From Xylocopilactobacillus apis (lineage in GTDB: Bacteria > Bacillota > Bacilli > Lactobacillales > Lactobacillaceae), in the NCBI RefSeq assembly GCF_033095965.1, contig NZ_AP026801.1, positions 1-64,000 on the forward strand: DNA of 64,000 nucleotides, given 5' to 3'. A model generated the notes under the pieces. The model made no database searches. It was not told the DNA's origin and saw only the letters and a list, made by a program, of their open reading frames with translations. Positions 2,628-58,545 of this stretch are shown in pieces; position 1 is the stretch's first letter; the number at the start of each line of letters is the position of its first letter. A program made the position numbers and the translations under genes.

Positions 2628-2638
2628 TGTTTTATCTT

Positions 2639-2712
2639 CGGGATGTGGCTCAGTTTGGTAGAGCACCACGTTCGGGACGTGGGGGTCACAGGTTCAAATC
2701 CTGCCATCCCGA
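2639..2712 (+). tRNA. tRNA-Pro (anticodon CGG)
   Basis: A full cloverleaf can be folded. The acceptor CGGGATG (2639-2645) pairs with CATCCCG (2705-2711), with discriminator A2712. The D arm has GCTC/GAGC. The anticodon stem CCACG/CGTGG flanks the loop TTCGGGA with anticodon CGG at 2673-2675. The T arm carries GGTTCAAATC. CCA is not encoded. CGG reads the CCG proline codon, and the body resembles known proline tRNAs. It starts 11 bp after dnaN stops and is followed by a terminator, so it may be co-transcribed with dnaN. Confidence 0.95.
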
Positions 2713-2718
2713 TTATGA

Positions 2719-3042: not shown

Positions 3043-3060
3043 GTCTTTGTCTATTTTTTT
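3031..3060. terminator. Weak terminator between converging genes
   Basis: CAAAGA (3031-3036) pairs with TCTTTG (3044-3049) and is followed by a T-rich tract to 3060. It overlaps the end of the truncated gene and sits next to the end of the membrane protein on the opposite strand. Confidence 0.45.
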
Positions 3061-3499
3061 AAACGATCATTAATAAAGTTTGAAGCACGGTAATTGATAA
3101 AGCATAGATTGCAGCGGTCTTTTGAGAGGTTTGTTCAATGTTACTAGCGAAGAAGAAATAACTTAAAGCCGTAACTAAATCTGAAACGATTGTTAATAAC
3201 TGATAATTCCAGTTGATAGCAAACTCTGAAAACATGAGGGCAAATTCGATCAAGGTAATAATAAGAATTAAATTTAAAAGCTCAGTTTTTTTATCAACCG
3301 GTTTTCGTTTAATCAGTCTTAAAAGATACATTGAGAAGTAATAAACGACCCAAAGTGCAAAATAAGTTAAGGGAATTACTAAAATAATCGTCAAAATTGG
3401 ATCCATCAAGTTTTTAAAGCTAAAATAAAAGAAGAGATCTGATAAGACAATGACCGCGAAAAGAAGAAGATAAGAAATTTTGTTCATAATTTTTGACAT
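3059..3499 (-). CDS. Small multi-pass membrane protein, unknown function
   Basis: The protein has 146 residues with about four hydrophobic segments: near the N-terminus (ISYLLLFAVIVLSDLFFYF), PILTIILVIPLTYFALWVVYY, LLNLILIITLIEFALMF, and the C-terminal half. A positively charged loop (RLIKRKPVDKK) lies between segments two and three, suggesting it is cytoplasmic. I do not recognise a family. The ATG at 3499 is preferred because AGGTGA lies 5 nt upstream of it; a GTG three codons earlier lacks a ribosome site. It is divergent from the gene at 3554, with which it shares a short AT-rich intergenic region. Confidence 0.7.
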   Translation of the reverse strand: MSKIMNKISYLLLFAVIVLSDLFFYFSFKNLMDPILTIILVIPLTYFALWVVYYFSMYLLRLIKRKPVDKKTELLNLILIITLIEFALMFSEFAINWNYQLLTIVSDLVTALSYFFFASNIEQTSQKTAAIYALSITVLQTLLMIV

Positions 3500-3553
3500 A
3501 AGATTCACCTGAATTAATGATAATATAAATAATGATACAAGGAAGGCTAGAAA

Positions 3554-3766
3554 ATGGCAAAAGAAATCAGTTTCGATCGTTTGGAAATGGCAAGTTATTC
3601 CGTAATGGCTGCCAAAAATATTGGTTTAGATGTTGATACATCATATCGTTTAGCTAATGAAATTAACCGCTTAATTGATGCAAGCAAACTTAATCCTGAT
3701 TTTCGATCAATTTTAATGAATCAGGCGAAGCAGTGGTTTGACGAAAATGCCCCAAAAGAAGGTTAG
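3554..3766 (+). CDS. Hypothetical small protein (70 aa)
   Basis: A soluble, helix-rich, charged protein of 70 residues with no signal peptide or membrane segment. The ribosome site GGAAGG (3541-3546) supports the ATG. Residues about 8-50 (RLEMASYSVMAAKNIG, then TSYRLANEINRLIDASKL) look like two amphipathic helices. No family is recognised and no motif for catalysis or DNA binding is visible. It stands alone, 105 bp before the MucBP gene. Confidence 0.7.
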   Translation: MAKEISFDRLEMASYSVMAAKNIGLDVDTSYRLANEINRLIDASKLNPDFRSILMNQAKQWFDENAPKEG

Positions 3767-3870
3767 TTTCTATCTATTAATGAAAATCTAAACTGAATTG
3801 AAATTTATCTGGGAAAAAATTGTTTAATATATTGTTAGATTATATTAGATAAATAAGACGAGGAGTTAAA

Positions 3871-6501
3871 ATGAGTTCAGGTCAGAATAATAGATTAGAA
3901 GAAGTTAAAAAATTTCTGTCCGAGATACTTTCAGGCGAATTAACCGGATATAAAATCCAACAGCGTAATGATGAGATGTTTCAGCTTACTCAGTGGGCTC
4001 AAAAACAAAATTTAATCACCGGTGTTGATTTTCGTACTGTATCCGATCAAGTTGCAATGATCGATTATTCTGGGGTTCAGGTAACTGATAAGGGAAGACA
4101 AATACTTGCAGAAAGTGGTGTTCAGATTCCCGAACCGCAGAAAAAAACAGATAATGTAGTGCCTTTAAATGCTCAGTCAGATCAACAACCTCAACAATCC
4201 CAAGTTAATGTCGATAATTTATTGCAGAACATGAATGCAGGCGATCAAGAGACAGCACAATCTTTACTGCAGTCACTAAGAGAAGGTCGCTCGAATCAGT
4301 TAGTGTACTCAGATTATTTGGATTTCTTTAACCGTAATCCCCAATTCTACACATATTTTATTAGTGCGGGACAAGAAGAAGTTCCTGCACCTCAATCACA
4401 GGAAGTTCCACCAGCAGAAGCAAGTGGAATTTTCTCGCCGGAAGTTCAGAGAATTATTGCTCAAACAGAAAATCAAAAAGCTGGTCACGAAGAAGCAGCT
4501 CCTCAAGCTACCCCATCAGAAATTGATAATTCTGAACCAGTAGCTGTTGATCCTAATCCAGTACCTGAAAAAGAATCAGCTCCAGAGCCAGAAGTTCAAC
4601 CTCAGATCCAGCCTGAACCTGTCCAAACTTATCCAGTTCAATCAGAACCCGTGGTTGAAGAACCAGTTGTCAGTAAAGAAGAAGTTAGTGAACCTGCCTT
4701 TGAATCTGCTCCAGTAGTAAATATTGAACCAGAAGTTAAAGAGCCAGAACCAGCAGTAGAAGAAGCGCCTGAAGAAACTGTTTCTCAGTCTGCTAAAACC
4801 ACAACTCACGTGGTAATTAAATATTTAGATCAAGATCAAAAAGAAATTGCCCCTGCCCTTTCAATTCAGCTCACGAGCCAGACTTCGGCTTATGATGTAT
4901 CAAGTTATCAGAAGAAAATTCGTGACTATGATTTTGTGAAAGCAGAAAATGAAAAAGGACACATCACCAGCCAAGAAATAAATGTTATTTTCCACTACGA
5001 AGCGAAGCTTGCAGAGGGAAATATCAAAATAAGTTATGTAAATCAACAGGGAGAAAAGATTGCTGAACAAAAAGTTGTTCAAGGCGGTCGAATTGGTCAA
5101 TTTTATCCTTTACTTAATGATTTACCAGACCAGTTAGTTAAAGATCTTGATAGTCGGCGTTACGTTTTACAAAGTATCTTAGCTGATAATGATCCAACTG
5201 ATTCTTCACTCATCTACTTTAGTGATCGTGATCAGAATTTTACTGCGATTTTCCGTGAGTTGTTGCCAGGACGGATTACTTTAAGATATCGGAATCTGAA
5301 AAATCAAGCAATTGGCATCGGTGAACGGGTGATGGAAAACAATGTTGAAAATGGTGACAAAATTGCAATTCCTCTCCCCTTGGTTCCAACTGGCTATGAA
5401 TTAGATCAGACCTTACTTAATGGTGATCCTGTTAGTGTTGGTGATCACTTTACGGTTTCGCCGGATGAACAAATAATTGATTATGTCTTTAAGCGCGTTA
5501 TCGCTGACGGTGCAATTATTTTCAACTATGTAGATCAAGACGGACGTGAAATTGCTCATCAAACTGTTGTTCGCGGCGGCCGCTATGGTGAGATTTATGA
5601 CTTCGATGCTAATTTACCGCAGACAGTTATTAATCGAGTTAATGATGGAGTTTATGAAAATAATCCAATCATCAAAGAAGAAACCGAAAATGGGACTGTA
5701 ATTCCAGCGGCTCGAATTACATTTGACAATAACGATCATGAATATTCGGCTGTTTTCCAAGCAACAGAAGCTGCTAGTATTACTATGAAGTTTGTTACAA
5801 CTGATGATAATCCAATTCCAAACGTAACTGATAAAGTAGTTCAAGGAACTCATTATTATGGTGATACTTTTGTGATTCCAAATGCCCCTTCAATTACTGG
5901 ATTTGATCTTAATCGCGTGATGGTTAATGATAAAGTTGCGCAAGTTGATGATCCTGTAATGTATAGTAATCAAGAACAAACAGTTACTTATGTTTACACT
6001 ATTGCAACAAGTACGATCACTGCTCATCATGTCGATCAATTGGGTCGTCAAATTGCTGAAGATCGAATTATTACTGGTCAGATTGGCACGACGGTAGAAC
6101 AGAGTCAGCTGGTATCATTAAGACTCAATCCCTACTATGTTCTAAGCGACGTGTTAACCAATAACAGTAATTATACTTTTACTACTGATCCACAGTTCAT
6201 CACTTTCCATTATCAAGTCGATGATGATTTAGTACCAGAAGTCTTAAATGTATCGGATATAGTTTTACTCAACTGTCTTGATACAAATGGTAATATCATC
6301 GGAAAAGTGACTCCAAGTTCAATTCACCTTGAACCAGTTAAAGTCGGACATGTCTACCTCGTCCATGCACCTGACTTTGCGGGATATCACTTATTCAGCC
6401 AGACTGATACTGTGAGAATAGTGTGGAACTCTGAGAAAGCTAATGATTTTACAATCGTCGACCATCCAAATGGTTTAGCATTTATCTATCAATCTATCTA
6501 A
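3871..6501 (+). CDS. MucBP-repeat protein without signal peptide or anchor
   Basis: The protein has 876 residues and a ribosome site GAGGAG. Residues 1-90 are soluble and helix-rich, ending in a segment (VTDKGRQILAESG) that resembles the winged-helix tail of YjcQ-like proteins. Residues about 90-310 are a Pro/Glu/Gln-rich linker. From about 311 to the end come roughly seven beta-rich repeats of MucBP type. Examples are VVIKYLDQDQKEIAP (about 314), IKISYVNQQGEKIAEQ (about 390) and IIFNYVDQDGREIAHQ (about 550), several with a following GYxL-like element. MucBP repeats normally occur in secreted, LPXTG-anchored mucin-binding adhesins. Here I see neither a hydrophobic leader nor an LPXTG or transmembrane tail, and no better upstream start. 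How it reaches the surface, if it does, is unknown. Confidence 0.8.
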   Translation: MSSGQNNRLEEVKKFLSEILSGELTGYKIQQRNDEMFQLTQWAQKQNLITGVDFRTVSDQVAMIDYSGVQVTDKGRQILAESGVQIPEPQKKTDNVVPLNAQSDQQPQQSQVNVDNLLQNMNAGDQETAQSLLQSLREGRSNQLVYSDYLDFFNRNPQFYTYFISAGQEEVPAPQSQEVPPAEASGIFSPEVQRIIAQTENQKAGHEEAAPQATPSEIDNSEPVAVDPNPVPEKESAPEPEVQPQIQPEPVQTYPVQSEPVVEEPVVSKEEVSEPAFESAPVVNIEPEVKEPEPAVEEAPEETVSQSAKTTTHVVIKYLDQDQKEIAPALSIQLTSQTSAYDVSSYQKKIRDYDFVKAENEKGHITSQEINVIFHYEAKLAEGNIKISYVNQQGEKIAEQKVVQGGRIGQFYPLLNDLPDQLVKDLDSRRYVLQSILADNDPTDSSLIYFSDRDQNFTAIFRELLPGRITLRYRNLKNQAIGIGERVMENNVENGDKIAIPLPLVPTGYELDQTLLNGDPVSVGDHFTVSPDEQIIDYVFKRVIADGAIIFNYVDQDGREIAHQTVVRGGRYGEIYDFDANLPQTVINRVNDGVYENNPIIKEETENGTVIPAARITFDNNDHEYSAVFQATEAASITMKFVTTDDNPIPNVTDKVVQGTHYYGDTFVIPNAPSITGFDLNRVMVNDKVAQVDDPVMYSNQEQTVTYVYTIATSTITAHHVDQLGRQIAEDRIITGQIGTTVEQSQLVSLRLNPYYVLSDVLTNNSNYTFTTDPQFITFHYQVDDDLVPEVLNVSDIVLLNCLDTNGNIIGKVTPSSIHLEPVKVGHVYLVHAPDFAGYHLFSQTDTVRIVWNSEKANDFTIVDHPNGLAFIYQSI

Positions 6502-6516
6502 ATAATCTAAAAATTA

Positions 6517-6542
6517 AAGATCATGGAGACATGGTCTTTTTT
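6517..6542 (+). terminator. Terminator after the MucBP gene
   Basis: AAGATCATG (6517-6525) pairs with CATGGTCTT (6530-6538) with a short loop and a T run. It lies 16 bp after the stop codon. Confidence 0.85.
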
Positions 6543-6661: not shown

Positions 6662-8938
6662 TTGAAGAAAAAGTTAGTTATCTTTCCACTGCTAATATTT
6701 AGTTTCTTTGCTTTGTTAATAGTTAAAGCAGAGACAGTTAGTGCGGCAGATAAATTAGTAGCATTTAAAAATGACGCAGGAAGAACTGTTGGTTACGTTA
6801 ATTTGTCCAGCGAGGGCATTTTGGGAACCGATACTCTTGCTACGGCTTTTAAAAAGTTAGGTGCAACTTCTACCGGTGAAATGAATGTCTACGGTCGTAA
6901 ATATACTTTAGTTTCTGCAGACTCTCTCTCTACCGATCCAACAAGCGATATTGGCATTTGGTTTCACGGAACCACTGCAGGTAATACTACCACTGTCGAT
7001 AGTTTTATGAATAGTAACACTGCATCAATTACAGGTGGAGCCGTTTATCTCGAAGGTAAAAATCCGCAAATCCCCGAATTCCCAGATCTGAAATTGGATC
7101 CAACTAATGATAATGTTGATTTTGCTAGTTCAGGCTGGACTGAGATTACTCCCGCAAATTATAAGAACGACATGGTGTGGAATTTTACACGTAATAAAAG
7201 GAAGTACCAGATTACAAGTAATTCTTCTTATGATAATTACTGTGGTTCAGATAATTTAAATTCTTTAAAAGTAAAAGACCTTACGGATCCGAATAATATT
7301 AAATTCTATACGTATGATTACGATAACGGAGTGTCTAGTACAACAGTTCTTAGTTATTTCAATGATTATGGTGGAAATGATAATATCATTTTAAATACAA
7401 CAAATGTTAAAATGTATAAAAAGCCATCTAAATATGGCAATGCGATTGCTGTGATTAGAAGGTTCGATTACCCTACGTTTAGTAATTTTAATACAGAAAT
7501 TATGGATGTTAATCCTGATGGAACAATTCAGGTTTATACAAGTTATACCGAAAGATTAAAAACAAGACTTAATCCAACTTTTAAATATGATACGGATACT
7601 GATCTTAGAATATTTGATGCCAATGATAATAGAATTGGTGGACCAGGAGATACTGTTGGAATATATAAAGGACCAGGAAATACAGTTTACGTTAAAGGAA
7701 TAACTCAAAGTAATCCTTCCATTTCGGTGAAGGCAAATATCCATTATATTGATGTATCAGGTAAGAAGTTACCTTCAAGTGGCAGTTGGTCTCCTAGTGA
7801 TGGAACAGAATTAGCTGGCAGAACGCAACTTATTTCTGCAACCACAACTTCAATTAATAGTAACGGTTATGAGATTGTCCCGGTATCGGGTTTTGCAATT
7901 GTTGGCAGAAGTGATACTACTGCAATTTCTGCTGATGGAAAAAAGTTTAAATTTCCGGCTGATATAGTCAATAAAGCAGTTGAAACAGAATTTAGAGTTT
8001 ACTTTGGATCTAAAAATCAGTACGCGGCACCCCTTAATTCATATGGAAATCTTTATTATGCAGTTCATGCTAATGATGGGACTCATCAATTAGATGATCT
8101 ACTATTCTCTAATGGTGATTCTTCAGTAATAACTGCTGATCCAATACCTCGGCTTGATACTAACATGACTTATGGAATGCCACTTACGGAGCAAGTTGTT
8201 TCATCTGGCGAGTTAGAAGAAGAAAATACGAAAGATTATTACATTTATGTTCAAGAAAATAAGCCAGTAACATTGCGGGCTGTTCCTGACTTTGATTTTG
8301 GTATCCATAATATAGATTTTAGTAAGCACACTTATAATTTTAAAAGTTCTATTCCAAAAGCTGGAAGTGATGTTAATAAACTTAATTTAGATGATTCCTA
8401 TGATAATAATACACCTTCGTCAAATGTTGGTGTTCCAATTGAAAAATATTTGAAAGTAACGGATTATAACGGAGTGTCAACTAAAGCTCGAGCTTTAGTT
8501 GTGACAAATCCAAATGAAAATGATACTAGTAATTGGAGAATTGAAGCAAGTTTAGACACATTTAAAAATGTGAGTGGTACGTATATAAATCAAGCAGACA
8601 TACCTTATTTAAAACTAAAGACTAGTGCTGAAGGTATTGATGATTATGGTCAAAATGGTATGTCAACTTGGCAGAAGTCTTCAGCTCCAATTCTAGCGAC
8701 TGATCCAATAATTTATTCATATAATCGAAATAATCCAAGTGACCCAAGGAATAATCCAACAATCATTTTAAATGGAAAAAATGGAACAAGCACGGCGGTT
8801 GGATCGTGGAAACTCGATTTTGCTATGAGTGATTCTGCTTCATTATATTTTCCATCTTCATTAATACAAAGTTCTGGTAACAAAACTAATTCTTACCACT
8901 CAACATTGACATGGACAGTAGTTAATCAAACTCCCTAA
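6662..8938 (+). CDS. Secreted WxL-domain surface protein
   Basis: The protein has 758 residues, starting at TTG with GGAG upstream. The signal peptide is KKK plus a hydrophobic core, with likely cleavage after VSA near residue 28. Most of the protein is beta-rich, Asn/Ser/Thr-rich and of unknown fold; a MucBP-like strand (ISVKANIHYIDVSGKKLP) occurs near residue 355. The C-terminal part from about 541 fits a WxL domain: it opens with VPDFDFG (541-547), contains the proximal NWRIEAS (W625) in place of WxL, and ends with LTWTVV (749-754), like the usual distal motif. WxL domains bind peptidoglycan non-covalently, so this should be a cell-wall protein. It is upstream of the first large paralogue, and related WxL-like ends occur in the BspA-type genes. 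Confidence 0.8.
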   Translation: MKKKLVIFPLLIFSFFALLIVKAETVSAADKLVAFKNDAGRTVGYVNLSSEGILGTDTLATAFKKLGATSTGEMNVYGRKYTLVSADSLSTDPTSDIGIWFHGTTAGNTTTVDSFMNSNTASITGGAVYLEGKNPQIPEFPDLKLDPTNDNVDFASSGWTEITPANYKNDMVWNFTRNKRKYQITSNSSYDNYCGSDNLNSLKVKDLTDPNNIKFYTYDYDNGVSSTTVLSYFNDYGGNDNIILNTTNVKMYKKPSKYGNAIAVIRRFDYPTFSNFNTEIMDVNPDGTIQVYTSYTERLKTRLNPTFKYDTDTDLRIFDANDNRIGGPGDTVGIYKGPGNTVYVKGITQSNPSISVKANIHYIDVSGKKLPSSGSWSPSDGTELAGRTQLISATTTSINSNGYEIVPVSGFAIVGRSDTTAISADGKKFKFPADIVNKAVETEFRVYFGSKNQYAAPLNSYGNLYYAVHANDGTHQLDDLLFSNGDSSVITADPIPRLDTNMTYGMPLTEQVVSSGELEEENTKDYYIYVQENKPVTLRAVPDFDFGIHNIDFSKHTYNFKSSIPKAGSDVNKLNLDDSYDNNTPSSNVGVPIEKYLKVTDYNGVSTKARALVVTNPNENDTSNWRIEASLDTFKNVSGTYINQADIPYLKLKTSAEGIDDYGQNGMSTWQKSSAPILATDPIIYSYNRNNPSDPRNNPTIILNGKNGTSTAVGSWKLDFAMSDSASLYFPSSLIQSSGNKTNSYHSTLTWTVVNQTP

Positions 8939-9057
8939 AATAAATCATTAAAACGTTAAATATTCCCTTTTATTACATATCGTTTCAAATTTATTACCTG
9001 TTTTTTATATTGTTAGGTTACAATAAATGTAGAGATTATACGAAAAGGGAGAATTTA

Positions 9058-12000
9058 ATGAAATTTAAACTGGCTGGCTTTACTAGTACAGTTCTGTTGT
9101 TATTGACACCTATAACTGGTGCGTTAACTGCAGTTTCTAATACTAAAACTGTTTATGCTGATAATAATTGGGATTATGATGTCGATAATCCTAGTCTTAG
9201 TTCATATGATCAACTTTTACAAAATGCGGGTCCAACTGATGGGATTGTTGATTGGTATCCAACTAAAGGAGCGCTTAGTAACGATCCGTCTGCTCAAGAA
9301 GTAGTAAAACAATTAATTGATCTTTCAATTTCGACTAATGACTCTAATTCAAATGCCCGCAAAGTTCTCTTTAACGATACGACCGGTAATCTTAATGATA
9401 TCCGTTCTGATTATAAGTCTACATATGATAAATATAGCACTGCCCTTGGTTTTATTGCGCAAATTATTAATTTGAACAATACCAAGACCGGTCTTGGAGT
9501 TAAACTTGAACAGCATGCTGTAAAGAGTGCTAATGATAAAGATGATCCCGCTGATACTGATGGAAATAATGTCATTACTGATAAAGTTCAACTTGATCCT
9601 AAAGATGAAGCTTCAAAAATTGGGAAGAATATCTCTGATGTCTTAGGTGCAAGTTTCTTTGGTAATGCAGACGATGCCTATGCGCAGATTTATTTAAATG
9701 GATATGATAATGTTTCTCAGAATGAATCAAATATTATTCGAGAAGGAACTTCTAGCATTACGTTGGTCGCCTTCAGTAAAACTACTGGCAAAAAAGCAAC
9801 TGCAGTATTTAAGTTAAATAATAAGACTCTTCCTCAGGCGCCAACTAATTCTAAACTGAATAATTATGTTGACAACAGTCTTTATGCTCTAGAGAAAGAT
9901 AATGGCAAACGAGATATTGCGGGGCTTAATTTAGCGACGGCTCCAAAGTCAGTGATCGATAACCTTAAACTTTCAAAGAAATCTACTTTCTGGGTTGATG
10001 GGAATGGTGATGGCACAATTGTAGTCCCTCGTGGTACTACTGCTAAACAAATTGCAGATTTGATTGCCAAAAAGAAATTAGATTCTAATAACTCTCTTAA
10101 AGAAACTGCTCCGATGAAGGCAATTCAAAGTACTGATGGTGCTCATGGGTATGAACATAAATCAGTTGACTCGGGGAATGGAAATTTCACTCCTTTTAAT
10201 GGTAGTTCGTTAATTAAACACAGTATGAAGGGTCCAGATAAAGGTAATACTGGATATATTGAGTATAGCAATAATTTTCTTGAATCAAATAAATGGTTTG
10301 GTGGAGCTAATGATGCTGAACACATGTTGGATACTAATTCAATGCTGGAAACTTCATTTAGCAATAAATCAGCTTCAGAAATTCCAAACTCAAATGTTTC
10401 TGAATCTAGTCCTTTTATAAATGATCCTGAAGCATTTAAACCGCAGGATTATATCAAGCCAAACAATATTTCTGATGTTCAGAATGCGGCAGTTGTAAAA
10501 ACTAAAGATGGTAAGAGTAACGTTGGTAAAGTGGGACATTTATTCCAACCCGCTGGCTACGTTAAAGAATCATATGATGCTAATCACTTTGTAAACGACA
10601 ATCCTGAATTTAAGGATTCAGATTCAAGCAAGATTGCTCAAAGCATTGCGAATAGTGGTAGTTTTTCAAGTACTGATCCAAATGCTGGTGTAAAGAAGAG
10701 CTTTACCTATGAAGCACCTGTTAATACTTGGATGTATAAGTCATTCAACAACCCATACTCAACAGTTGTAAGTAGTCAAGGTTCTAATTATTCTAATAGT
10801 AAATCAAATACTAATGTATATGGTGATACCATAAAACCTCAAGAATATGTTGATTTAGCTGATCCAAATAATGACAAGCCAAATCTTTCTGCTCCTACTA
10901 CTTTGAAGTTAGATAAGGGTAATGCGCAAGTTATTTATACTGGTAAAGACAAAACTGGTGATAACGATGTTTATTATTATATTGGTGTATATAATAATTT
11001 AAAAAAATTAACAATACCTATTCCTTCCGCTACGACAAATATTGAAGATAGTGATACCGGAGCTCTTACCAAATATGGAACTGTTGGAACTGACGGGTCA
11101 GAACCCATTATGTGGGACCCTAAAATTTATAAAAATTCCCCGGATCCTTTTGGTACTACTAGTGTCCTTAATTCAGAATTTAACAATGGAACAGCTAGTA
11201 TAAATTTTGGTGACGGTAATGTAAATAAAGATCGAGATAAATTACTTTTTCCTTATGTTAAAAAGAAAGTTTCGAAAAACCAATCAATGTTCTTCGTTCA
11301 AACTTGGGATAAGAATGTAGACAGTAATACTAATGAACCAAAACCCTTGATTTACAACGCGAAGGGTGGTTCAAATTCAAGTGACTCTGATTCACCAAAC
11401 TTTGAGTCCAAATACTATATTGAAGGTGTTATTGAGGTGGACCCAAATGCAGTTATAGATCCTATCAAAGCTCATGCCGTTAACGTTCATGCAGTTCAAG
11501 ATAGTGATACGAAGAAAGCTTTCTTCAACTCAAATCTTTATAACTACGATAAAAGTGAATTTGCTAAACCTGGCAGTGATCACCAAAATAACAGTCAATT
11601 CTTTGTATCGCAGGACTTCTCCGTTGGACCTGTTTCAAGTGATATGGTATCTAGGACTGGTGACAGTTCAGTAGATAGTGATCCAAGTAAGATTATCGAC
11701 ATGGTTGCTAAGAATAGTGATCCTTCTAAGAATGAAAAAAATAATTATAATAATGACGTGGCTCCAGCCGAATTCACTGTCGAAAACGGCTACAAGTTAG
11801 TAACGCTTGATGATGCAGCTAAGAATCAGAACGTATCAGTTGATGCGTTGGCTTCAGAAGTTTCTAAAGTTACTGGTAAATCTCTTGATACTGTCAAGAA
11901 CACAAAATGGCTTGAAGCTTCATTACCTAGACTTAAAGAAAATGCAGGTACTGCTAGAGTTAACGTCGTAGTTTACGACAAAGAAGCAGTATCGGCTCCT

Positions 12001-13401
12001 ACGAAACAAGATACAAAACCATCGTTCTCAGTTACTGACCTTAGCAATGGAAATGATCCTTTCAATGTTAGTCTTCGTCCCTACACTACTACATATGATG
12101 ATGGTGCAGTTTTAACGACAGCTAACGTTCCTCAGAATTTCAAGAATTTAGTAAGCAAAACTCTTGTTGCTGGAAATCCTGACTTTGTTGATGCTAGCGG
12201 TAAAGTTTCAAATAACAAATTACAGCAGGTTCTTGTTAGTTCGTTCCTTAGCAGCTGGCAGCAAAATGACGGCAGTTTTAAACAGACTGACTCTGGTCTT
12301 GGAGTTAGGTCTCCCCTATACATGTATGGCGGTTTTGGAATCAGCAATTCTGACAGCAAGAATTCATATACCCAGTGGCCTTTAGGCTACAGTGATAACA
12401 GTGGCGATTACAAGAATGCAGTGAACAGTTTTTCAGGCGACTTTTATCGTGGCGGAACAGATCTTAAGGCAGCCGATGGTAAAAATTTGATTAAAGGGAT
12501 TCCTTTTAACGCTCTAACCGCTGACGTTAGTAAAGTAGATATCACAAAACCTGGTACTTATCCGGTCGTTTATACCTACACCAATCCTGACAATGCGAAA
12601 GATACCGCAAGTATTACGGTTCCAGTAACTGTGTCGGAAGTTTCAAAACCAATTTTTGCATTCCAAGGAAGCGCTGATTCGACAATTAATGTTGATGACA
12701 GCTTTAACGAAAATGAGTACAAAGTAGTCGGATCATGGGCAATTTTTAACAACTACGGCGGTGACTACAGCAAGCTGCCTAATTTTGAAGGCATCGCTAA
12801 GAATAATGATGGATCTCCAAAAGTAACGATCACGGGGCATGTGGATACTCATACTCCTGGTATTTATCAATTAACCTACGAGGCCACGAGTATTAGCGGC
12901 GAAACTACGACAATGATTAGAAAAATTACCGTTTTGCCGAAAAGTATTGCTACCGATTGGACGATTACCGATATGAAGGCCGTTGGCTACATTAACTATG
13001 TTCCAAATTACGGAATTATGGTTTTCAATGCGCCAGCCGGCAGTGCTACCGGTCAACGATTAGCTCACACTACGGCGTGGAGAATCAGCCAAAAAGCAGT
13101 TAATGCTAAAGGGGATGTTTTCTATCGCGTTGGCAAGAATCAGTGGATCAACGGGAGATATGTGTCATTTAGTCCAATCAGCACTATGGCTCCGCTAAAA
13201 GGCGAGATTGAAATTGTCTACGTGAGAGGTTATGGCGTTAACATTTGGAAGAGTGCCGGCACGACTAATAGTTACTACATGGATAGAAAATTGAAACATG
13301 GAAGCAAGTGGAAGACTTTTGGTCTTCAGAACGGCTTTTACAAAGTTGGCCGAGATCAGTGGGTTCAAGGAGATTTCGCTAGATACAAAGCATATAAATA
13401 A
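9058..13401 (+). CDS. Large secreted SLAP-like surface protein, paralogue 1
   Basis: The protein has 1447 residues. The ATG at 9058 is preferred over an upstream in-frame start because GGGAG lies just before it and the paralogues start there. The signal peptide ends near VYA (about residue 34). The shared N-terminal domain (about 35-300) begins NNWDYDVDNP and includes YDQLLQNAG, VDWYP and YAQIYLNGYDNVSQN; the element VVPRGTTAKQIA follows near residue 320. A variable centre follows (about 360-780), then shared blocks RFFVSQDF-like, KWLEASLPR and NVVVYDKEAV. An Ig-like domain of DUF5011 type (about 1190-1300) precedes two SLAP/DUF5776-like repeats at about 1306-1375 and 1378-1447, each built around GYG(I/V)xxxxxxAG and QWxxGxxxxx. 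SLAP-type repeats bind wall polymers non-covalently. The function of the N-terminal domain is unknown. Confidence 0.85.
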   Translation: MKFKLAGFTSTVLLLLTPITGALTAVSNTKTVYADNNWDYDVDNPSLSSYDQLLQNAGPTDGIVDWYPTKGALSNDPSAQEVVKQLIDLSISTNDSNSNARKVLFNDTTGNLNDIRSDYKSTYDKYSTALGFIAQIINLNNTKTGLGVKLEQHAVKSANDKDDPADTDGNNVITDKVQLDPKDEASKIGKNISDVLGASFFGNADDAYAQIYLNGYDNVSQNESNIIREGTSSITLVAFSKTTGKKATAVFKLNNKTLPQAPTNSKLNNYVDNSLYALEKDNGKRDIAGLNLATAPKSVIDNLKLSKKSTFWVDGNGDGTIVVPRGTTAKQIADLIAKKKLDSNNSLKETAPMKAIQSTDGAHGYEHKSVDSGNGNFTPFNGSSLIKHSMKGPDKGNTGYIEYSNNFLESNKWFGGANDAEHMLDTNSMLETSFSNKSASEIPNSNVSESSPFINDPEAFKPQDYIKPNNISDVQNAAVVKTKDGKSNVGKVGHLFQPAGYVKESYDANHFVNDNPEFKDSDSSKIAQSIANSGSFSSTDPNAGVKKSFTYEAPVNTWMYKSFNNPYSTVVSSQGSNYSNSKSNTNVYGDTIKPQEYVDLADPNNDKPNLSAPTTLKLDKGNAQVIYTGKDKTGDNDVYYYIGVYNNLKKLTIPIPSATTNIEDSDTGALTKYGTVGTDGSEPIMWDPKIYKNSPDPFGTTSVLNSEFNNGTASINFGDGNVNKDRDKLLFPYVKKKVSKNQSMFFVQTWDKNVDSNTNEPKPLIYNAKGGSNSSDSDSPNFESKYYIEGVIEVDPNAVIDPIKAHAVNVHAVQDSDTKKAFFNSNLYNYDKSEFAKPGSDHQNNSQFFVSQDFSVGPVSSDMVSRTGDSSVDSDPSKIIDMVAKNSDPSKNEKNNYNNDVAPAEFTVENGYKLVTLDDAAKNQNVSVDALASEVSKVTGKSLDTVKNTKWLEASLPRLKENAGTARVNVVVYDKEAVSAPTKQDTKPSFSVTDLSNGNDPFNVSLRPYTTTYDDGAVLTTANVPQNFKNLVSKTLVAGNPDFVDASGKVSNNKLQQVLVSSFLSSWQQNDGSFKQTDSGLGVRSPLYMYGGFGISNSDSKNSYTQWPLGYSDNSGDYKNAVNSFSGDFYRGGTDLKAADGKNLIKGIPFNALTADVSKVDITKPGTYPVVYTYTNPDNAKDTASITVPVTVSEVSKPIFAFQGSADSTINVDDSFNENEYKVVGSWAIFNNYGGDYSKLPNFEGIAKNNDGSPKVTITGHVDTHTPGIYQLTYEATSISGETTTMIRKITVLPKSIATDWTITDMKAVGYINYVPNYGIMVFNAPAGSATGQRLAHTTAWRISQKAVNAKGDVFYRVGKNQWINGRYVSFSPISTMAPLKGEIEIVYVRGYGVNIWKSAGTTNSYYMDRKLKHGSKWKTFGLQNGFYKVGRDQWVQGDFARYKAYK

Positions 13402-13914: not shown

Positions 13915-13958
13915 GTGAAAAGTTTCATAATTGCGGTATAATTGAAACTAAGTTTCAC
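13915..13958 (+). promoter_or_regulatory. Promoter with nested dyad operator before paralogue 2
   Basis: The -10 box TATAAT is at 13937-13942. GTGAAA (13915-13920) and AGTTTCAT (13921-13928) on the left mirror GAAACT (13944-13949) and TTTCAC (13953-13958) on the right, so inverted copies of AGTTTC/GAAACT flank the -10 box. No good -35 box is visible. The layout suits a repressor or activator binding as two dimers. The predicted transcript start lies within the right arm, leaving a leader of about 26 nt. Confidence 0.6.
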
Positions 13959-13974
13959 AAAGAAGGAGAAAGTA

Positions 13975-16900
13975 ATGAAATTTAAAGTAGCTGGTTTAGC
14001 TAGTACTGCATTGCTGTTATTATCACCTATAACAGGTGCTTTTACTGCAGCTATTAATACTAGTACAGTTCACGCGGAAAATAATTGGGATTACGACGTT
14101 GATAATCCTGGCATCAATTCTTATGATGCACTTTTGCAAAATGCTGGTCCTAGTGATGGGATCGTTGATTGGTATCCTGCTAAGGATGCATTGGGAGACA
14201 ACCCGACAGGACAAGAATTAGTTAAAGAACTAATCGACCTTTCAATCGCAACGAACGATTCAAGCTCTAATGCTAGAAAAGTTCTTTTTAACGATACTGT
14301 AGGTAACCTTAACGATATTCGCTCTGAATATAAAACTACTTATGATAAATATCCCGTTGCCTTAGGATTTATTGCGCAAATTCTTAATTTTAACAATTCT
14401 AAGTCAGGTCTTGGTGCAAAACTTGAACAAGACGCAGTTGACGGAGATCAAGATCCAACTGATAGTGATGGAAATTCTGTTATTGCAGGCAAAATCAAAG
14501 AAAATCCAGCCGATCACGCTGCACAGATTGGAAAAAATGTTTCTGACGTTTTAGGCTCAGCTTTCTTTGGCGACCCGGATGATGCTTACGCTCAGATTTA
14601 TTTGAATGGTTACGACAACGTTTCGCAAAACGAAGCTAATATCATTCGTGAATCAACAAGCAGTATTACAATTGTTGCTCAAAGTAAGTCAACAGGCAAA
14701 AAGGCAACAGCAATCTTCAAACTTAACAATAAGACCCTCCCTAAGGGTGCTGACGGCATGAAGCTTAATAATTACGTTGATAATAGTGTTTATGCCCTTG
14801 ACAATAAAAACGGTAATGGCGAGATCGCTGGCCTTAATATGACTACTGCTTCTCAGTCCACAATTGATAACCTTAATTTTTCAAAGCAGTCAACTTTTTG
14901 GGCTAGCGGTACAAAAAATGCTAATGCTAAAGATGATGGTGCAGGAACAATCGTTGTACCTCGCGGCACAACTGCAAAGCAAGTTGCTAAATTAATTGCT
15001 GACCGTAAGCTTGATGGGAACAACTCTCTTCGCGAATCAGCTCCAATGAAGGCTGTTCAAGCGGCCAAAATGCCTGCTGACGCCGGTGCTGATAACGAAA
15101 TTGCAGGAGCACCTACAGGCAGTAACACTTGGAAAGATGTTTCTTATGATCATTTTTACGAAAGTACAGGAGTTGCTAAAGCAAACGGTTCAGGTAGTGA
15201 CTCATTATATAACTTTGCTGACAGTATTAATACTGGAATTAATGGTCCTGATAACCCAGCTTTTTCTGTTTTTTCTACGATAAATGAAAATCGTGAATAC
15301 AATGGGCCATTTAACTCAAGAAATGGTTGGTTTGGTCAAAGCTACAATACTACCAAAATGAATACACGTATGATTGATACAAATGAACTTTTTGACCCAA
15401 GTAAGACTGGAAAATTTACTAATAAGTCTGCAGCTTCTTTACCAGGAGTTAAACAATCGGAAGCGACACCTTTTGATTCAGATGATGTTTCTTTGGGCCA
15501 CGCAAAAAATATGACCGATTTAAAAAGTAAGGTCGCTGGAGTTTTAGATGATAATAGTGAAAAAGCAACTAATGTCGGAAAAGTTACACATTTATTCCAA
15601 CCGTCTGATTATTTTAAAGAAGCTTATGATGCTAACCATTTTGTTACAAATAGTCCTTCTTTAAAAGATAATAATGTCGATGATATTGCAAGTAAAATCG
15701 CAAATAATGGTAGTTTCTCTGGTACTGATGTAAATGCTCAAATCAAAAAAAGCTTTACATACGAAACACCTGTTTCTGCTTGGCTTTATAAGTCTTACAA
15801 TAACCCGTACTCTACAGTTGTAAGTAGTGCAGGTGCAAAAACTGTTGATGGTAAAACGCTTGATGAAACAGTTTCTACCGCAAATTCAACCGTTCAGCCT
15901 CAAGAATATCTTGATTTATCAAATCCTAATAATCAGGAAGCAAAAGACGATCCAAAAAATATAAAACTTTCTGAAAATATATCACCTATTTTTGTTGGTA
16001 ATTATAATCCTTCTACATATGAGTTTGATGCAACTCCAAGTGGAACTAATCCCGTATTCTTCTGGGCAGGAACATTTAAGAAGGGTTTGCCATCTGATTC
16101 TACCAATATCTTGACAATTGATTTTAATACGATGATAAATGGAACATCAGGATCAGTAGGACTTCCTAGTGTAAATACTGGAAATAAAATCATGATTCCA
16201 GCGGGTACGTCAGGAACTTTGGTAAAATATGGAGCAGTAGGATCAGATACTGAAAGTTATGGTTCTGGCTCTACTACTGGAAAAGAAATTGGTCAATCAA
16301 CTATTGATAATTCTGGTATAGGTATAGGTACTGGTAAAATAAATGGGCCAGGGGGACTTGTTATCAATGGATCAAATCAGAAATGGGTTATGAATGGAAA
16401 AAACATTGGCCTAGAAAATGGTTTGAACGGAGAAACTTTAAACTTCAATAACCCTTATGACAAAATGGAAGTTTGGGATAATTCCCAATATTTTGTTCAA
16501 ACATGGGATAAAAATAAGACAACTAAAGAAGCGCAGGGTGACACATTTGTTCCTACAGATAAACCTGAGCCTTTGATATATAATATAAACATCACAAAAG
16601 ATCCTAATCAAGCAGGTGGAATAAATTCAGATAGTTTTGAAAAGAAAACTTTGTCAGCTGTGGATTCACCTAATTTTGAAGCCAAGTATTACTATTCTGG
16701 ATATTTTGAACTAGCTCCTGATGGTTCTGGTGACTATACAATTAAAAGGTTTTTAATAGGTAATCACCTTGCTCAAACTGCAGCATCAACGAGAGCATAT
16801 TTCAACTCTAATCTTTACAATAATCCTAACGGATATTTTGCTAACGATTTAAGTACTGGGGAAGCAAAAACTTACACAAACAACAGCCGTTTCTTCGTAT

Positions 16901-18735
16901 CACAAGACTTCTCTGTAGGACCTGTTTCAACAGATATGGTTAGTGATCCTGGTGGAACCGACCTCACAATTAATGGAGTAACTTATCCAGCTTCGAAAGG
17001 AACTAATCCAGAAGTTAATGCTGAAAAGATTATCGAATTTACAGCTAAAAATAATGATCCTACCCAAAATCCCGCAAATCAATTAGCAGATCCTAAAGTT
17101 AAAAACGAATTCACAGCCGATAATGGTTACAAATTAGTTTCACTTGATGAAGCAGCTGAAAAGCAAGGAACAACAGTTGATGCTTTAGCAAACGAAGTTG
17201 CTAAAGTTACTGGTAAATCAGTTCAAACTGTTAAAAACACTAAATGGCTTGAAGCATCATTACCTCGTGTTAAAACAAACGCCGGTCAAGCTCGCATTAA
17301 CGTCGTTGTTTATGATAAAGAAGCAGTTCCTGCTCCTACTAAGCAAGATACAAAACCATCATTTTCAACTACAGATTTAAGCAGCGGAAATGATCCATTT
17401 AATGTAAGCTTACGTCCTTACACAACAACTTACGATGACGGTGCTGTTTTAAAAACATCAGACGTCCCTGATAGTTTTAAAAACTTGTTAAGCACAACTC
17501 TTACTGCTGGCAATCCAGATTTAGTTGACGCAACTGGTAAAGTTTCAACAAATAAATTACAGCAGATTCTTGTTAGTTCATTCCTTGGCAGCTGGCAGCA
17601 AAATGACGGCAGCTTTAACCAAACTGATTCTGGTTCTGGCGTAAGCTCCCCACTCTACTTGTATGGCGGTTTCGGAATTAGTAATTCTGATACTAAAAAT
17701 TCATACGCTCAATGGCCAATGGGTTACATTGATAACAGTGGCGATTATAACAACGCAATTAATAGTTTTTCCGGCGACTTTTACCGTGGAAGTGCAGACC
17801 TTAAAACAGCAGATGGCAAGACTACTATCAAAGGAATCCCCTTCTCTGCTCTAACAGCTGACGTCAGCAAATTAGATATTACAAAACCCGGTACTTATCC
17901 AGTAGTTTATACATATACTAACCCTGACAATGCTAAAGACACTGCAAGCATTACAGTACCAGTTACTGTTAGTGATGCATCAGCACCAGTTTTTGCCTTT
18001 CAAAATTCTAAAGATTCAACAATTAAGGTTGGTGAAAGCTTTAACCAGAATGACTACAAAGTTGTAGGCTCATGGGCAATTTTCAACAATTACAGCGGCG
18101 ACTACAGCAAGTTACCTAATTTTGAAGGCATTGCTAAAAACAGTGACGGAACACCACAAGTCACAGTTAGCGGAAATGTTGATACAAATACACCTGGGAT
18201 CTATCAGTTGACCTATAAAGCAGTAAGCACTAGTGGTGCAGTAACAACAATGGTTCGTAACGTTACAGTTTTACCGAAAGAATCAACAACAGACTGGACG
18301 ATGAATGATATGAAGGCAGTTGGATATATCAACTATACTCCAGGATATGGTATTATGGTTTACACTGCTCCAGCAACTGGTGCAAAAGGTCAGAGATTAG
18401 CTCACGGCACTTCATGGAAGATCAGTCAAAAAGCAGTTAATGCTAATGGCGACACTTTCTACAAGGTCGGAACTAATCAGTGGATCAATGGAAAATACGT
18501 AACATTCAGTCCAATTAATACAATAACTCCTCTCAAAGGTGAAGTTAAAATTGTCTATAAGAAAGGTTACGGTGTTAACCTTTGGAAGAGTGCTGGAACA
18601 ACTGGCGGCTTCTATACTGGTCGTAAATTAAAACACGGCACATCATGGAAGACAAGCGGTAAGCAGAACGGCTTCTATAAAGTCGGTAAGGATCAATGGA
18701 TTCAAGGCGACTACGCAAGTTATAAATCATATTAA
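13975..18735 (+). CDS. Large secreted SLAP-like surface protein, paralogue 2
   Basis: The protein has 1586 residues. The ATG at 13975 follows AAGGAGA with normal spacing; an upstream in-frame ATG lies over the -10 region and is unlikely. The signal peptide probably ends after VHA near residue 34. It has the same architecture as the gene at 9058: the N-terminal domain opening ENNWDYDVDNPG, a variable centre (about residues 360-890), then RFFVSQDFSVGPVS, KWLEASLPR, an Ig-like domain and two C-terminal SLAP/DUF5776-like repeats ending YASYKSY. The centre contains long Gly/Ser/Asn-rich loops not shared with paralogue 1. Its promoter carries a nested dyad, unlike the other copies. It probably attaches non-covalently to the wall; the ligand or role is unknown. 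Confidence 0.85.
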   Translation: MKFKVAGLASTALLLLSPITGAFTAAINTSTVHAENNWDYDVDNPGINSYDALLQNAGPSDGIVDWYPAKDALGDNPTGQELVKELIDLSIATNDSSSNARKVLFNDTVGNLNDIRSEYKTTYDKYPVALGFIAQILNFNNSKSGLGAKLEQDAVDGDQDPTDSDGNSVIAGKIKENPADHAAQIGKNVSDVLGSAFFGDPDDAYAQIYLNGYDNVSQNEANIIRESTSSITIVAQSKSTGKKATAIFKLNNKTLPKGADGMKLNNYVDNSVYALDNKNGNGEIAGLNMTTASQSTIDNLNFSKQSTFWASGTKNANAKDDGAGTIVVPRGTTAKQVAKLIADRKLDGNNSLRESAPMKAVQAAKMPADAGADNEIAGAPTGSNTWKDVSYDHFYESTGVAKANGSGSDSLYNFADSINTGINGPDNPAFSVFSTINENREYNGPFNSRNGWFGQSYNTTKMNTRMIDTNELFDPSKTGKFTNKSAASLPGVKQSEATPFDSDDVSLGHAKNMTDLKSKVAGVLDDNSEKATNVGKVTHLFQPSDYFKEAYDANHFVTNSPSLKDNNVDDIASKIANNGSFSGTDVNAQIKKSFTYETPVSAWLYKSYNNPYSTVVSSAGAKTVDGKTLDETVSTANSTVQPQEYLDLSNPNNQEAKDDPKNIKLSENISPIFVGNYNPSTYEFDATPSGTNPVFFWAGTFKKGLPSDSTNILTIDFNTMINGTSGSVGLPSVNTGNKIMIPAGTSGTLVKYGAVGSDTESYGSGSTTGKEIGQSTIDNSGIGIGTGKINGPGGLVINGSNQKWVMNGKNIGLENGLNGETLNFNNPYDKMEVWDNSQYFVQTWDKNKTTKEAQGDTFVPTDKPEPLIYNINITKDPNQAGGINSDSFEKKTLSAVDSPNFEAKYYYSGYFELAPDGSGDYTIKRFLIGNHLAQTAASTRAYFNSNLYNNPNGYFANDLSTGEAKTYTNNSRFFVSQDFSVGPVSTDMVSDPGGTDLTINGVTYPASKGTNPEVNAEKIIEFTAKNNDPTQNPANQLADPKVKNEFTADNGYKLVSLDEAAEKQGTTVDALANEVAKVTGKSVQTVKNTKWLEASLPRVKTNAGQARINVVVYDKEAVPAPTKQDTKPSFSTTDLSSGNDPFNVSLRPYTTTYDDGAVLKTSDVPDSFKNLLSTTLTAGNPDLVDATGKVSTNKLQQILVSSFLGSWQQNDGSFNQTDSGSGVSSPLYLYGGFGISNSDTKNSYAQWPMGYIDNSGDYNNAINSFSGDFYRGSADLKTADGKTTIKGIPFSALTADVSKLDITKPGTYPVVYTYTNPDNAKDTASITVPVTVSDASAPVFAFQNSKDSTIKVGESFNQNDYKVVGSWAIFNNYSGDYSKLPNFEGIAKNSDGTPQVTVSGNVDTNTPGIYQLTYKAVSTSGAVTTMVRNVTVLPKESTTDWTMNDMKAVGYINYTPGYGIMVYTAPATGAKGQRLAHGTSWKISQKAVNANGDTFYKVGTNQWINGKYVTFSPINTITPLKGEVKIVYKKGYGVNLWKSAGTTGGFYTGRKLKHGTSWKTSGKQNGFYKVGKDQWIQGDYASYKSY

Positions 18736-20143: not shown

Positions 20144-22981
20144 TTAAATTCCAGAATCGTTTACGAGCGTAAATGTAACTTGACCAGTATAGTGACCGGT
20201 TGCTGGAATATCAATTGGGTTAGTTTTAATTGCTAAATTCCAAGGTATTGAAATATTATCTTGATAACCTGCACCCGCAGCACCCGTGTGAACGGTTTGT
20301 GCAGTTGAAGTTAAATTGTACTTATTGCCAGTGTCTGTATCGTAAAACCAAAGAGGGTTTCCACTAATGGATTTAGTCGAGTCCGTATCCAATTGCATTG
20401 GTTTAGTAACAGAGGCTTCAATCTTCCAAGTTTTACCTTGACGAGCATTTCTTGTATCAGTTTCGGTGAAAGTCTGGTTAGTGCTTTTCACTTCTTTATT
20501 GGTAAACGCTGGTTTTTGGAATCCAAAATCAATTAATGCATAAGTATAAAATGTTTGCCATCCAGTTTGATCCCAGACATAAGTTCTAACGTCGCGACGG
20601 GTTACAGAATCAGTCGTAATTTGACTCGCTTTAAGAGTTGGTCCCTTAGGATCGTGAGGCGTTCCTCCGGTACCTAATTCCTGCCATTGTGGATTAGTAG
20701 CATAGTAAATTGGTGTTGGCTGATCCAAATCGTTGATTTGAGTTCCGCGAACTGGATCGGTAAGTAGAGCTTCTTCAATTACTGAATTCGGTCCAAGCGT
20801 TAATTTCCAAAGAGAGGGAGTATTTTTAGTAATCCAAGTACGAAGGTAACCGGGAGTTCTCCTGATATTAAAACTACTTAAATCCAAACTAGTTAATTTG
20901 GTACAACTCTGAAATAAACTATTGAAATTATCGACTTTATTAGTGTTCCAATGATTTACATCTATACTAGTTAATCCTGCACAACCAGAAAACATTCCAT
21001 TAATATTTGTAGAATTACTAGTGTCAAAGTGACTAACGTCCAATTCTTTCAAAGCGGAACAATCAGCAAACATAAGTTGCATATTTGTCACCTTACTAGT
21101 ATCAAACTTACTAACGTCCAAACTTTTTAATACGTAGCATAGTCTGAACATCTGAGCCATGTTAGTTACTTTATTTGTTTTAAACTTATCCGGATCAAAT
21201 TTTAAATCGGTCATTTTTCCGCACCAATAAAACATATATTGCATATCGGTTACTTCACTAGTGTCAAAGTTTAAAATATCTAAATTAGTAAACTGCTTGC
21301 AATAAGCAAACATGTAAGCCATATTAGTCACGTGAGTAGTGTCAAAACCTGTTACGTTAACTGATAATAAATTCATGCAGCCATTAAATAGTCCTGCCAT
21401 ATTAGTTACTTTACTGGTATTAAAATGACTTACATCGATATTAGTTAATAATTGGCACGTAGCAAACATCGAAGCAATATTAGTAACTTGGCTGGTATCA
21501 AAATTAGATACATCTAAACCAGTTAATGATGAATCACGATAAAACATTCCAGCCATATTAGTAACCTTACTGGTATCAAAATGTTCAACATGTAAAGAAG
21601 TTAGTGAATCACAGCTTTGAAACATATATTGCATATCAGTTACTTGACTGGTATCGAAATGAGATACATCTAAACTAGTTAACAACTGACAACCATTAAA
21701 CATGGATGCCATATTAGTTACTTCACTAGTATCAAGCATTTCTAGTCCTTCAATAGATGTCATTTTGCGTAATGGTGAAAACAGTTTGATTAACGATCCT
21801 CTTGCTGTAACTCCGGGTGAAATTATTGCTTTAACTATTTCTGTATTGAGTACACTATGTTTTGGATACCATGGCCAATCCTGTTGAGTATAACCGCTAG
21901 TATCAACCCAATTGACATGATCTCGATCCCAGTTAAGTTCGTGAGGATAGATTGTTAAAACATTATTACTATCAACGTTCCACCAAAGATAATCACTCAA
22001 ATTAATCGTCTGCATTTTAGCAGGATCAAAATTATTGTTTTTGTCTACTGCGATCACATGCAGATACTTGTTAATCCCGTCGGCGCGGTTTACATTAACC
22101 GTTCCCGACCCAGTCCCATCCGGCATTAAATTAAGATTAGAGACCTCGCCATTTACATCTTTGATTGGAGTTACTACACCATTAGGATTATTGTCAATTT
22201 GATAAACATATCCTTTTAAACCGCTGGTGATCGTCGATTTAACCACGTCTGAGTATTTAGTGGCACTTGCTGTTTTGGCTTTTACTCGGTAAAAATAATC
22301 TGTTCCCAGATCAGCGGCCTTAATCGTAATAGTTGCTTTATCATTATCGGTTGTTACTGTTGTCGTCGGCTTTTCCGGCGCGGCACTGTCTTTAACTGTA
22401 TGGTCCTCACCATGAGTGGTCATATTTAGGGTGCTGGTATAGTAAATCATATTAGCAATAATCTTTGCTTCATCAGGTGTACAGGCACTCATCCCGTTGA
22501 AAATCGAATGACCAGTTTGGATCATCGCATAATTGTTTTTGGTAACGAGATAGAAATTATTATCAGCAATTCGATGCCCATCATCACCAGGTACTTGATT
22601 ATTATTTTCATCAAGATAATTAATATCTTTCGCTTCTCCAGCAAAAGAAAACGGCGGTTCGTATTCCATCCACTTTTGTGCCCCGCCTTGATATAAATAG
22701 TATTGGCCGGACGAATGCGAGAATTTGATTTCCAATGTCTGATCTAACGTAAATTTATATGGGTATTGATTTAAAAATCCATCCATTGAAAATTTAACTT
22801 TAGTTGAGCCTAACCCAACGTTTCCCCCACTGCTGGGATATCCTGGCAATATTTTTAATCCTAGACTAGGACCAAATTGAGCTAAATATGTATGAGGATA
22901 ATATACTGTATCGTGCCCCAAGATAATTGAACGTCCAGTTTGACCGTAAGCAACTGTTGCTGCATACGAAGTTGCGTTCAA
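20144..22981 (-). CDS. BspA-type LRR / WxL-like surface protein, 3' part after a frameshift
   Basis: A 945-codon frame starts at TTG (22981), overlapping the stop of the upstream frame by 4 bp, with no ribosome site. Residues about 1-170 continue an N-terminal domain whose first half lies in the 22978-23634 frame (GRSIILGHDTVYYPHTY). A Thr-rich fibronectin-like stretch follows. From about residue 400 come some ten BspA/DUF285 leucine-rich repeats of the form DTSxVTNMxxMFxxCxxLTxLDVSxF. The end (KTWKIEAS and GHYTGQVTFTLV) looks like a WxL-like wall-binding domain. BspA LRR proteins are secreted and often bind host or wall ligands. With the preceding frame it is most simply one gene broken by a one-base slip. 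Confidence 0.8.
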   Translation of the reverse strand: MNATSYAATVAYGQTGRSIILGHDTVYYPHTYLAQFGPSLGLKILPGYPSSGGNVGLGSTKVKFSMDGFLNQYPYKFTLDQTLEIKFSHSSGQYYLYQGGAQKWMEYEPPFSFAGEAKDINYLDENNNQVPGDDGHRIADNNFYLVTKNNYAMIQTGHSIFNGMSACTPDEAKIIANMIYYTSTLNMTTHGEDHTVKDSAAPEKPTTTVTTDNDKATITIKAADLGTDYFYRVKAKTASATKYSDVVKSTITSGLKGYVYQIDNNPNGVVTPIKDVNGEVSNLNLMPDGTGSGTVNVNRADGINKYLHVIAVDKNNNFDPAKMQTINLSDYLWWNVDSNNVLTIYPHELNWDRDHVNWVDTSGYTQQDWPWYPKHSVLNTEIVKAIISPGVTARGSLIKLFSPLRKMTSIEGLEMLDTSEVTNMASMFNGCQLLTSLDVSHFDTSQVTDMQYMFQSCDSLTSLHVEHFDTSKVTNMAGMFYRDSSLTGLDVSNFDTSQVTNIASMFATCQLLTNIDVSHFNTSKVTNMAGLFNGCMNLLSVNVTGFDTTHVTNMAYMFAYCKQFTNLDILNFDTSEVTDMQYMFYWCGKMTDLKFDPDKFKTNKVTNMAQMFRLCYVLKSLDVSKFDTSKVTNMQLMFADCSALKELDVSHFDTSNSTNINGMFSGCAGLTSIDVNHWNTNKVDNFNSLFQSCTKLTSLDLSSFNIRRTPGYLRTWITKNTPSLWKLTLGPNSVIEEALLTDPVRGTQINDLDQPTPIYYATNPQWQELGTGGTPHDPKGPTLKASQITTDSVTRRDVRTYVWDQTGWQTFYTYALIDFGFQKPAFTNKEVKSTNQTFTETDTRNARQGKTWKIEASVTKPMQLDTDSTKSISGNPLWFYDTDTGNKYNLTSTAQTVHTGAAGAGYQDNISIPWNLAIKTNPIDIPATGHYTGQVTFTLVNDSGI

Positions 22982-24543: not shown

Positions 24544-24576
24544 CATAAATGACCAAAAAGATTGAAAGGGAGAATT

Positions 24577-53711: not shown

Positions 53712-53746
53712 TAGTCGCTCCTTTTTAAACACTATATTGATTAATT

Positions 53747-58519: not shown

Positions 58520-58533
58520 GTGGAAAAATCTTG

Positions 58534-58539: not shown

Positions 58540-58545
58540 ATGAAT

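Follow-up and report, generated by a model that had tools for sequence, protein, structure and literature searches.

A leaderless, anchorless MucBP-repeat protein with a winged-helix-like head in Xylocopilactobacillus: an adhesin-type array that may work inside the cell

Results

The locus and its neighborhood

The stretch of DNA analyzed here (the window; 64,000 nucleotides from the start of contig NZ_AP026801.1 of Xylocopilactobacillus apis) carries on its plus strand, at 3871..6501, an ATG-start open reading frame for an 876-aa MucBP-repeat protein that lacks both a leader and a wall anchor. The gene was taken from the list of open reading frames and recognized by PF06458, and the protein is present in all four genomes of the genus considered: that of X. 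apis itself (G000; complete, 2,271,855 bases) and those of three sampled sister species, one complete (G001; 2,311,735 bases) and two in draft (G002 and G003). A likely ribosome binding site, GAGGAG, can be read from the sequence five bases 5′ of the ATG (3860..3865), and an in-frame TAA seven codons 5′ of the start (3850..3852) makes a longer frame impossible. Downstream lies a terminator-like hairpin followed by a T run (6516..6539, plus strand), one of three such sites in the stretch scanned, against 1.9 expected in shuffles.

The gene has constant company. A genus-specific 70-aa ORF (3554..3766, plus strand) adjoins it upstream, and a divergent gene for a 149-aa hydrophobic (membrane) protein (3059..3508, minus strand) lies beside the pair; the three are kept together in four of four genomes, although in G003 the contig ends within the hydrophobic-protein gene. 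A tRNA-Pro(CGG) gene, the only tRNA in the window, is found at 2638-2713 (plus strand) between dnaN and the MucBP locus.

Immediately downstream lie genes for exported proteins, the first being one of 758 aa with a TTG start (6662-8938, plus strand) whose WxL match falls just below the cut-off (24.5 vs. 25 bits). Six related giant exported proteins of 1463-2040 aa (9010-13401, 13942-18735, 24562-30684, 33147-37892, 38134-42954 and 45667-50352, all on the plus strand) make up a large surface-protein cluster beside dnaA-dnaN, where the chromosome record begins; the two that were scanned with Pfam both have Ig-like and weak SlpA-type domains at the C-terminus. Inside this cluster are also two leucine-rich proteins of the DUF285/BspA type, one of 945 aa (20144-22981, minus strand) and one of 734 aa (43275-45479, plus strand). 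In two MAGs, detached ORFs at the same place (11401-12702 in L088 and 8891-10135 in L089), taken as rear parts of giant surface proteins, would represent either split genes or phase variation. Farther along the window are a PRD/sigma-54-activator-type regulator (51168-53732, minus strand), YfhO (58531-61389) and a BglG-type antiterminator with PRD and CAT_RBD domains (61589-62482, plus strand); the smaller ORFs between the two regulators may form a sugar-uptake set.

Domain make-up of the protein

An earlier note on this DNA, made from the letters alone, had described about seven MucBP-like repeats behind a winged-helix-like N-terminal part and a long Pro/Glu linker, and the repeats were readily confirmed. 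PF06458 (MucBP) matches the 876-aa ORF with an E of 1.1e-35 (122.6 bits vs. a cut-off of 23), six stretches pass singly, and the orthologues of all four genus genomes lie above the curated cut-off. Alignment with hand-set borders gives seven units, with the protein ending on the last. These were compared with a home-made MucBP profile, for which 59 MucBP ORFs from other Lactobacillaceae each supplied one repeat. Repeats 1 (4801..5010), 5 (5770..6003) and 6 (6007..6228) match this profile over its full length and repeats 2 (5014..5259) and 4 (5506..5766) in part; the divergent repeats 3 (5266..5499; E 0.095) and 7 (6241..6498; E 0.079, MucBP-like) also match only in part and are placed by alignment. 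By eye, units 2 and 4 resemble each other in the array alignment, as do units 3 and 5, and a pair of units may thus have been duplicated. The AlphaFold2 model of the array (three sequences) has a mean pLDDT of 29.5, and the fold of the array, in which each MucBP repeat would be expected to be beta-grasp-like, is argued from Pfam alone. The sole cysteine of the protein, C802, lies in repeat 7 and is invariant in the four orthologues; cysteine content is uninformative on location, being found also in 13 of 59 exported MucBP ORFs.

The N-terminal part does resemble a winged helix (residues 1-88; 3871..4134). No Pfam family other than PF09639 (YjcQ) has matches in all four orthologues; its best E is 7.2e-4, its scores lie under the curated cut-off of 23.3 (14.1-17.2 bits in the window protein and 20.7 in the G001 orthologue), and hhalign of the head against six YjcQ proteins of other Lactobacillaceae gave 86.5% over 53 columns, with residues of about 30-83 aligning with YjcQ. 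An AlphaFold2 model of residues 1-170 (three sequences; mean pLDDT 69.8) has a winged-helix-like arrangement at 3-81 (block means of about 70-87 over residues 11-80), a low-confidence stretch at 84-111 and four helices at 114-168. Foldseek matched this model to 2hgc, the NMR structure of B. subtilis YjcQ (prob 0.98, E 0.13, TM by target 0.60), which was also the top match in VIA (Z 7.9, rmsd 3.3, 69 aligned), where the rows reach residues 1-91 at most. Most of the VIA matches below it are winged helices that bind DNA (PadR, MarR, CggR), those of the PadR and MarR types with Z of 5-7. Because a VIA Z below 8 perhaps reflects merely a common arrangement, we call the head YjcQ-like and not a YjcQ. 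The YjcQ matches above the cut-off in the sampled genomes are short frames of 67-122 aa, whereas the head of the present protein is joined to about 790 more residues. As a fold class, winged helices belong to cytosolic proteins that bind DNA or other proteins; the head carries a net charge of -1 to -3 in the four orthologues and its putative recognition-helix stretch is neutral or acidic, and DNA binding is not favored because the head is net negative rather than basic. The suggestion that this domain serves as a new targeting element found no support, this part of the protein reading as a YjcQ-like winged helix followed by a helical domain.

Behind the head come four predicted, genus-specific helices (residues 112-168; 4204..4374; AlphaFold2 and alignment) and then a fast-evolving linker (residues 169-310; 4375..4800), with only 17.6-29.4% identity between lineages. 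The description of this linker as Pro/Glu-rich holds for X. apis, where its 142 residues include 25 P and 30 E, and in part for its sisters, which are Pro-rich with fewer Glu. In the G001 orthologue (L004) the linker is enlarged at residues of about 191-258 by a short Gln/Pro/Ala-rich repeat, with units starting at 191, 206, 221 and 251, that is absent from the other three species. Amid this variation the motif GIFSPEVQ(R/K)II (residues 186-196; 4426..4458) is fixed in all four orthologues; when a short motif is conserved while the linker around it drifts, it usually marks a binding peptide, and we take this one as a putative example.

No leader, no anchor and no missed start

The lack of any ordinary export signal, the observation with which the earlier note began, stands in all its parts. 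Kyte-Doolittle hydropathy averaged over 15 residues peaks at 0.53 within the first 90 residues, where 53 of 59 ordinary MucBP ORFs reach 1.5 or more; the 19-residue hydropathy maximum of 1.17 indicates no transmembrane segment in the whole protein; and the ORF contains no LPXTG. We looked in the four genomes for a missed upstream leader frame and for orthologues with ordinary leaders and found neither: all four orthologues are leaderless and begin at the same start, M(S/N)SGQN, with an in-frame stop 6-11 codons upstream in each. Since the same methionine and the upstream stops recur in four of four genomes, a sequencing error or frameshift that hides a leader is ruled out. The upstream 70-aa ORF was considered as a lost leader and rejected as a separate conserved protein; kinship between its product and the helical domain of the MucBP protein was likewise rejected (hhalign probability 0.5%).

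The same combination did not occur among the MucBP ORFs read from other Lactobacillaceae, where leaders were judged from Kyte-Doolittle means and by eye: 0 of 86 (59 + 27) lack both leader and anchor. A leader is present in 80 (70 by threshold, 10 by eye), and the remaining six, in which none is visible at the first start, each have an anchor of the LPXTG type. The first survey covered 59 distinct ORFs compiled by hand from among the matches listed, with a bias to high-scoring canonical repeats; 53 exceeded the hydrophobicity threshold, three (L110, L114, L150) have a leader by eye, and of the three without one, L117 is truncated where its contig ends, L122 seems to be the back part of a split gene and L131 shows none at its first start. 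The second took 27 further ORFs, matches from outside the genus that were not already in the first survey; 17 exceeded the threshold, seven more have a leader by eye, and L171, L173 and L185 have none at the first start. The other MucBP proteins read within the genus have leaders, mostly of the KxYKxGK type.

Distribution

The head (residues 1-180) finds a match in four of four genus genomes and in 1 of 297 other Lactobacillaceae genomes (E 0.007), where the lone hit (L036) is a protein of 382 aa, unrelated and hydrophobic at its N-terminus. Of these 297 genomes outside the genus, 28 have similar sequences, in the MucBP part only. Among 395 genomes of the order, a sample apparently without the other three members of the genus, a profile search recovered the own genome only, and a further contig search gave two loci, taken as the G002 and G003 contigs. 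From these searches the domain architecture appears to be genus-restricted, and it is new to us. The 70-aa family follows the same pattern, occurring in 4 of 301 Lactobacillaceae genomes (those of the genus), plus one match in G232 (E 4.5e-4) that we take as chance, as it holds a stop and overlaps, on the opposite strand, a long ORF resembling an hslU-type ATPase. A phage or plasmid origin was rejected: the tblastn matches (6 phage and 13 plasmid records) cover the MucBP part only, from query position 304 onward, the head had no match in these records, and the only PHROGs matches were weak and fell in families of unassigned function.

Conservation and composition of the array

The array spans 566 residues and differs by no insertion or deletion in any pair of orthologues, with 79.3-81.8% identity between lineages; the corresponding values for DnaN and DnaA are 76.7 and 91.4%. 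For the close pair G002/G003, omega is 0.03 for the array and 0.072 for the whole gene. Between X. apis and G001, identities of 36.8, 47.5, 48.7, 49.0 and 59.5% were obtained for exported surface proteins encoded in the same region and mostly 61-94% for cytosolic-type neighbors, all these neighbor identities being those of best hits and not of proven orthologues.

In composition the arrays are richer in Arg (3.7-4.4 vs. 0.8%) and poorer in Thr (6.7-7.6 vs. 15.3%) than 219 exported MucBP repeats. A linear composition classifier built on 31 exported and 33 cytosolic genus proteins, labeled by hand (2 of 64 leave-one-out errors, both of them exported proteins resembling lipoproteins), placed all four arrays on the cytosolic side at -3.4 to -6.9, near the border when set against a cytosolic leave-one-out median of -22, and all 32 exported MucBP repeat sets on the exported side at +8.4 or above. 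The composition of the array is thus intermediate. An earlier version with automatic labels, some of them wrong (MnmG, for example, as exported), made 6 leave-one-out errors in 72 and also called the arrays cytosolic (P exported 0.03-0.11); the short N-terminal parts were divided, with G002 (+3.1) and G003 (+2.7) called exported and G000 (-0.9) and G001 (-1.3) cytosolic, and were left out of the argument because of their shortness.

Export systems

EssC, the T7SS ATPase, was not found above the cut-off in the X. apis genome, where the hit is FtsK-like only (125.4 bits vs. 778.4), nor in the drafts G002 and G003, again with only an FtsK-like hit; G001 alone of the four has it, at full length (1532.6 bits). 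No second SecA was found in any of the four genomes, each having one SecA frame that was matched in two pieces.

Discussion

The repeats described here are of a known kind, while the architecture in which they occur, and their apparent location, are new to us. The likeness to the MucBP mucus adhesins of lactobacilli (those with KxYKxGK leaders and LPXTG anchors) is confined to the C-terminal 566 residues, which exceed the PF06458 cut-off; the protein differs from them in having no leader or anchor, a fixed array length, a winged-helix head and repeats that are richer in Arg and poorer in Thr. The best PDB sequence match of the array, a weak one (E 0.049), is 7yl4, listed as a GRAM_POS_ANCHORING domain-containing protein, which we take to be lactococcal YwfG; it is named for a wall anchor, unlike the protein studied here, and presumably has no winged helix. 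Among the papers listed in literature searches, titles and the opening parts of abstracts yielded no cytoplasmic MucBP protein and no MucBP/winged-helix fusion.

We think that the protein probably stays inside the cell because of the conservation of the array, the shift in its composition and the lack of EssC, together with a single SecA, in its own genome. On balance we lean toward the view that it resides in the cytoplasm and that its MucBP array, of the adhesin type, was recruited to intracellular work as a scaffold or adaptor. Of the possibilities raised in the earlier note, that the repeats act inside the cell is thus the one that fits best, with leaderless orthologues throughout, housekeeping-like conservation and a cytosolic-side composition in its favor; the location itself we infer from these sequence data. 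Against a cytoplasmic reading stand the exported proteins encoded immediately downstream and the classifier scores of the arrays near the border, and high conservation can also be compatible with an exported protein that has a fixed job. All MucBP proteins of known location are, to our knowledge, extracellular, and we know of no intracellular ligand of MucBP.

If the protein does work as a cytoplasmic scaffold, the YjcQ-like winged helix and the small helical domain would form a head, joined to the array by a flexible linker with its one fixed, putative binding motif. Head and linker motif would dock on a cytosolic partner, either DNA or, since the head is non-basic, perhaps rather a protein, for which the co-inherited 70-aa protein is a candidate. 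The seven MucBP-type modules, held in an array of fixed length, would then present several binding faces to an intracellular ligand. We give about even chances to the fuller version of this proposal, namely that the array is a domesticated adhesin array acting as a multivalent intracellular scaffold with genus-specific partners, which would make it the first array of MucBP repeats to have a task inside the cell.

A different cytosolic role would be that of a transcription regulator, in which the winged helix binds DNA, perhaps controlling the neighboring surface-protein genes, and the array serves as a cytosolic sensor or oligomerization arm. The largely DNA-binding winged helices that follow 2hgc among the VIA matches, and the surface-protein genes downstream, agree with such a role; the negative charge of the head and its neutral or acidic recognition-helix stretch, shared by all four orthologues, do not, and VIA Z values under 8 may reflect only a common arrangement, so that we regard a regulator as unlikely, if plausible.

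The membership of the repeats in a mucus-adhesin family and the exported neighbors also recall leaderless surface adhesins, which are synthesized in the cytosol, leave the cell through lysis or by a non-classical route and bind again to the wall, as moonlighting adhesins do. Intracellular proteins are reported to act as adhesins in gut bacteria (PMC6604927, PMC6646928). The likeness to moonlighting adhesins such as lactobacillar GAPDH lies in the missing export signal; these are, however, enzymes and chaperones with a known cytosolic job, while the present protein carries dedicated adhesin-type repeats. Its array differs in composition from all 32 exported MucBP repeat sets and is invariant in length, the protein has no wall-anchoring motif, and the other MucBP proteins read in the genus do have leaders. 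We therefore think this route improbable, and for non-classical export in general, which the earlier note had also raised, we found no positive evidence.

Specialized export by a T7SS or an accessory Sec system, with the head as targeting signal, could draw on the full EssC of G001, but the FtsK-like hits that stand in its place in X. apis, G002 and G003, and the single SecA of all four genomes, make it very unlikely. We discount almost entirely a decayed adhesin gene, or a mis-assembly or frameshift that cost it its leader: there are examples of broken MucBP genes (L122/L132 in G013 seems to be a split one), but here the leaderless start with its upstream stops is common to the four genomes, the frames are open, and the whole-gene omega of the G002/G003 pair is low.

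The interest of an intracellular MucBP array, if the cytoplasmic reading is right, would be threefold. The usual reading of MucBP is “surface, mucus-binding,” and in genome surveys these genes are counted among the adhesins; the module could then also serve inside the cell, this protein would offer a model for finding a MucBP ligand where no mucin is present, and its case would warn against naming a function from the repeat alone.

As a separate observation, the EssC gene of G001 lies close to four tandem, near-identical 133-aa ORFs with hydrophobic N-termini (L090, 1894-3814, minus strand), and near this array are a 455-aa lipase-like ORF and a MucBP protein with a leader and an LPXT-type anchor; the set is possibly a T7SS effector and immunity array.
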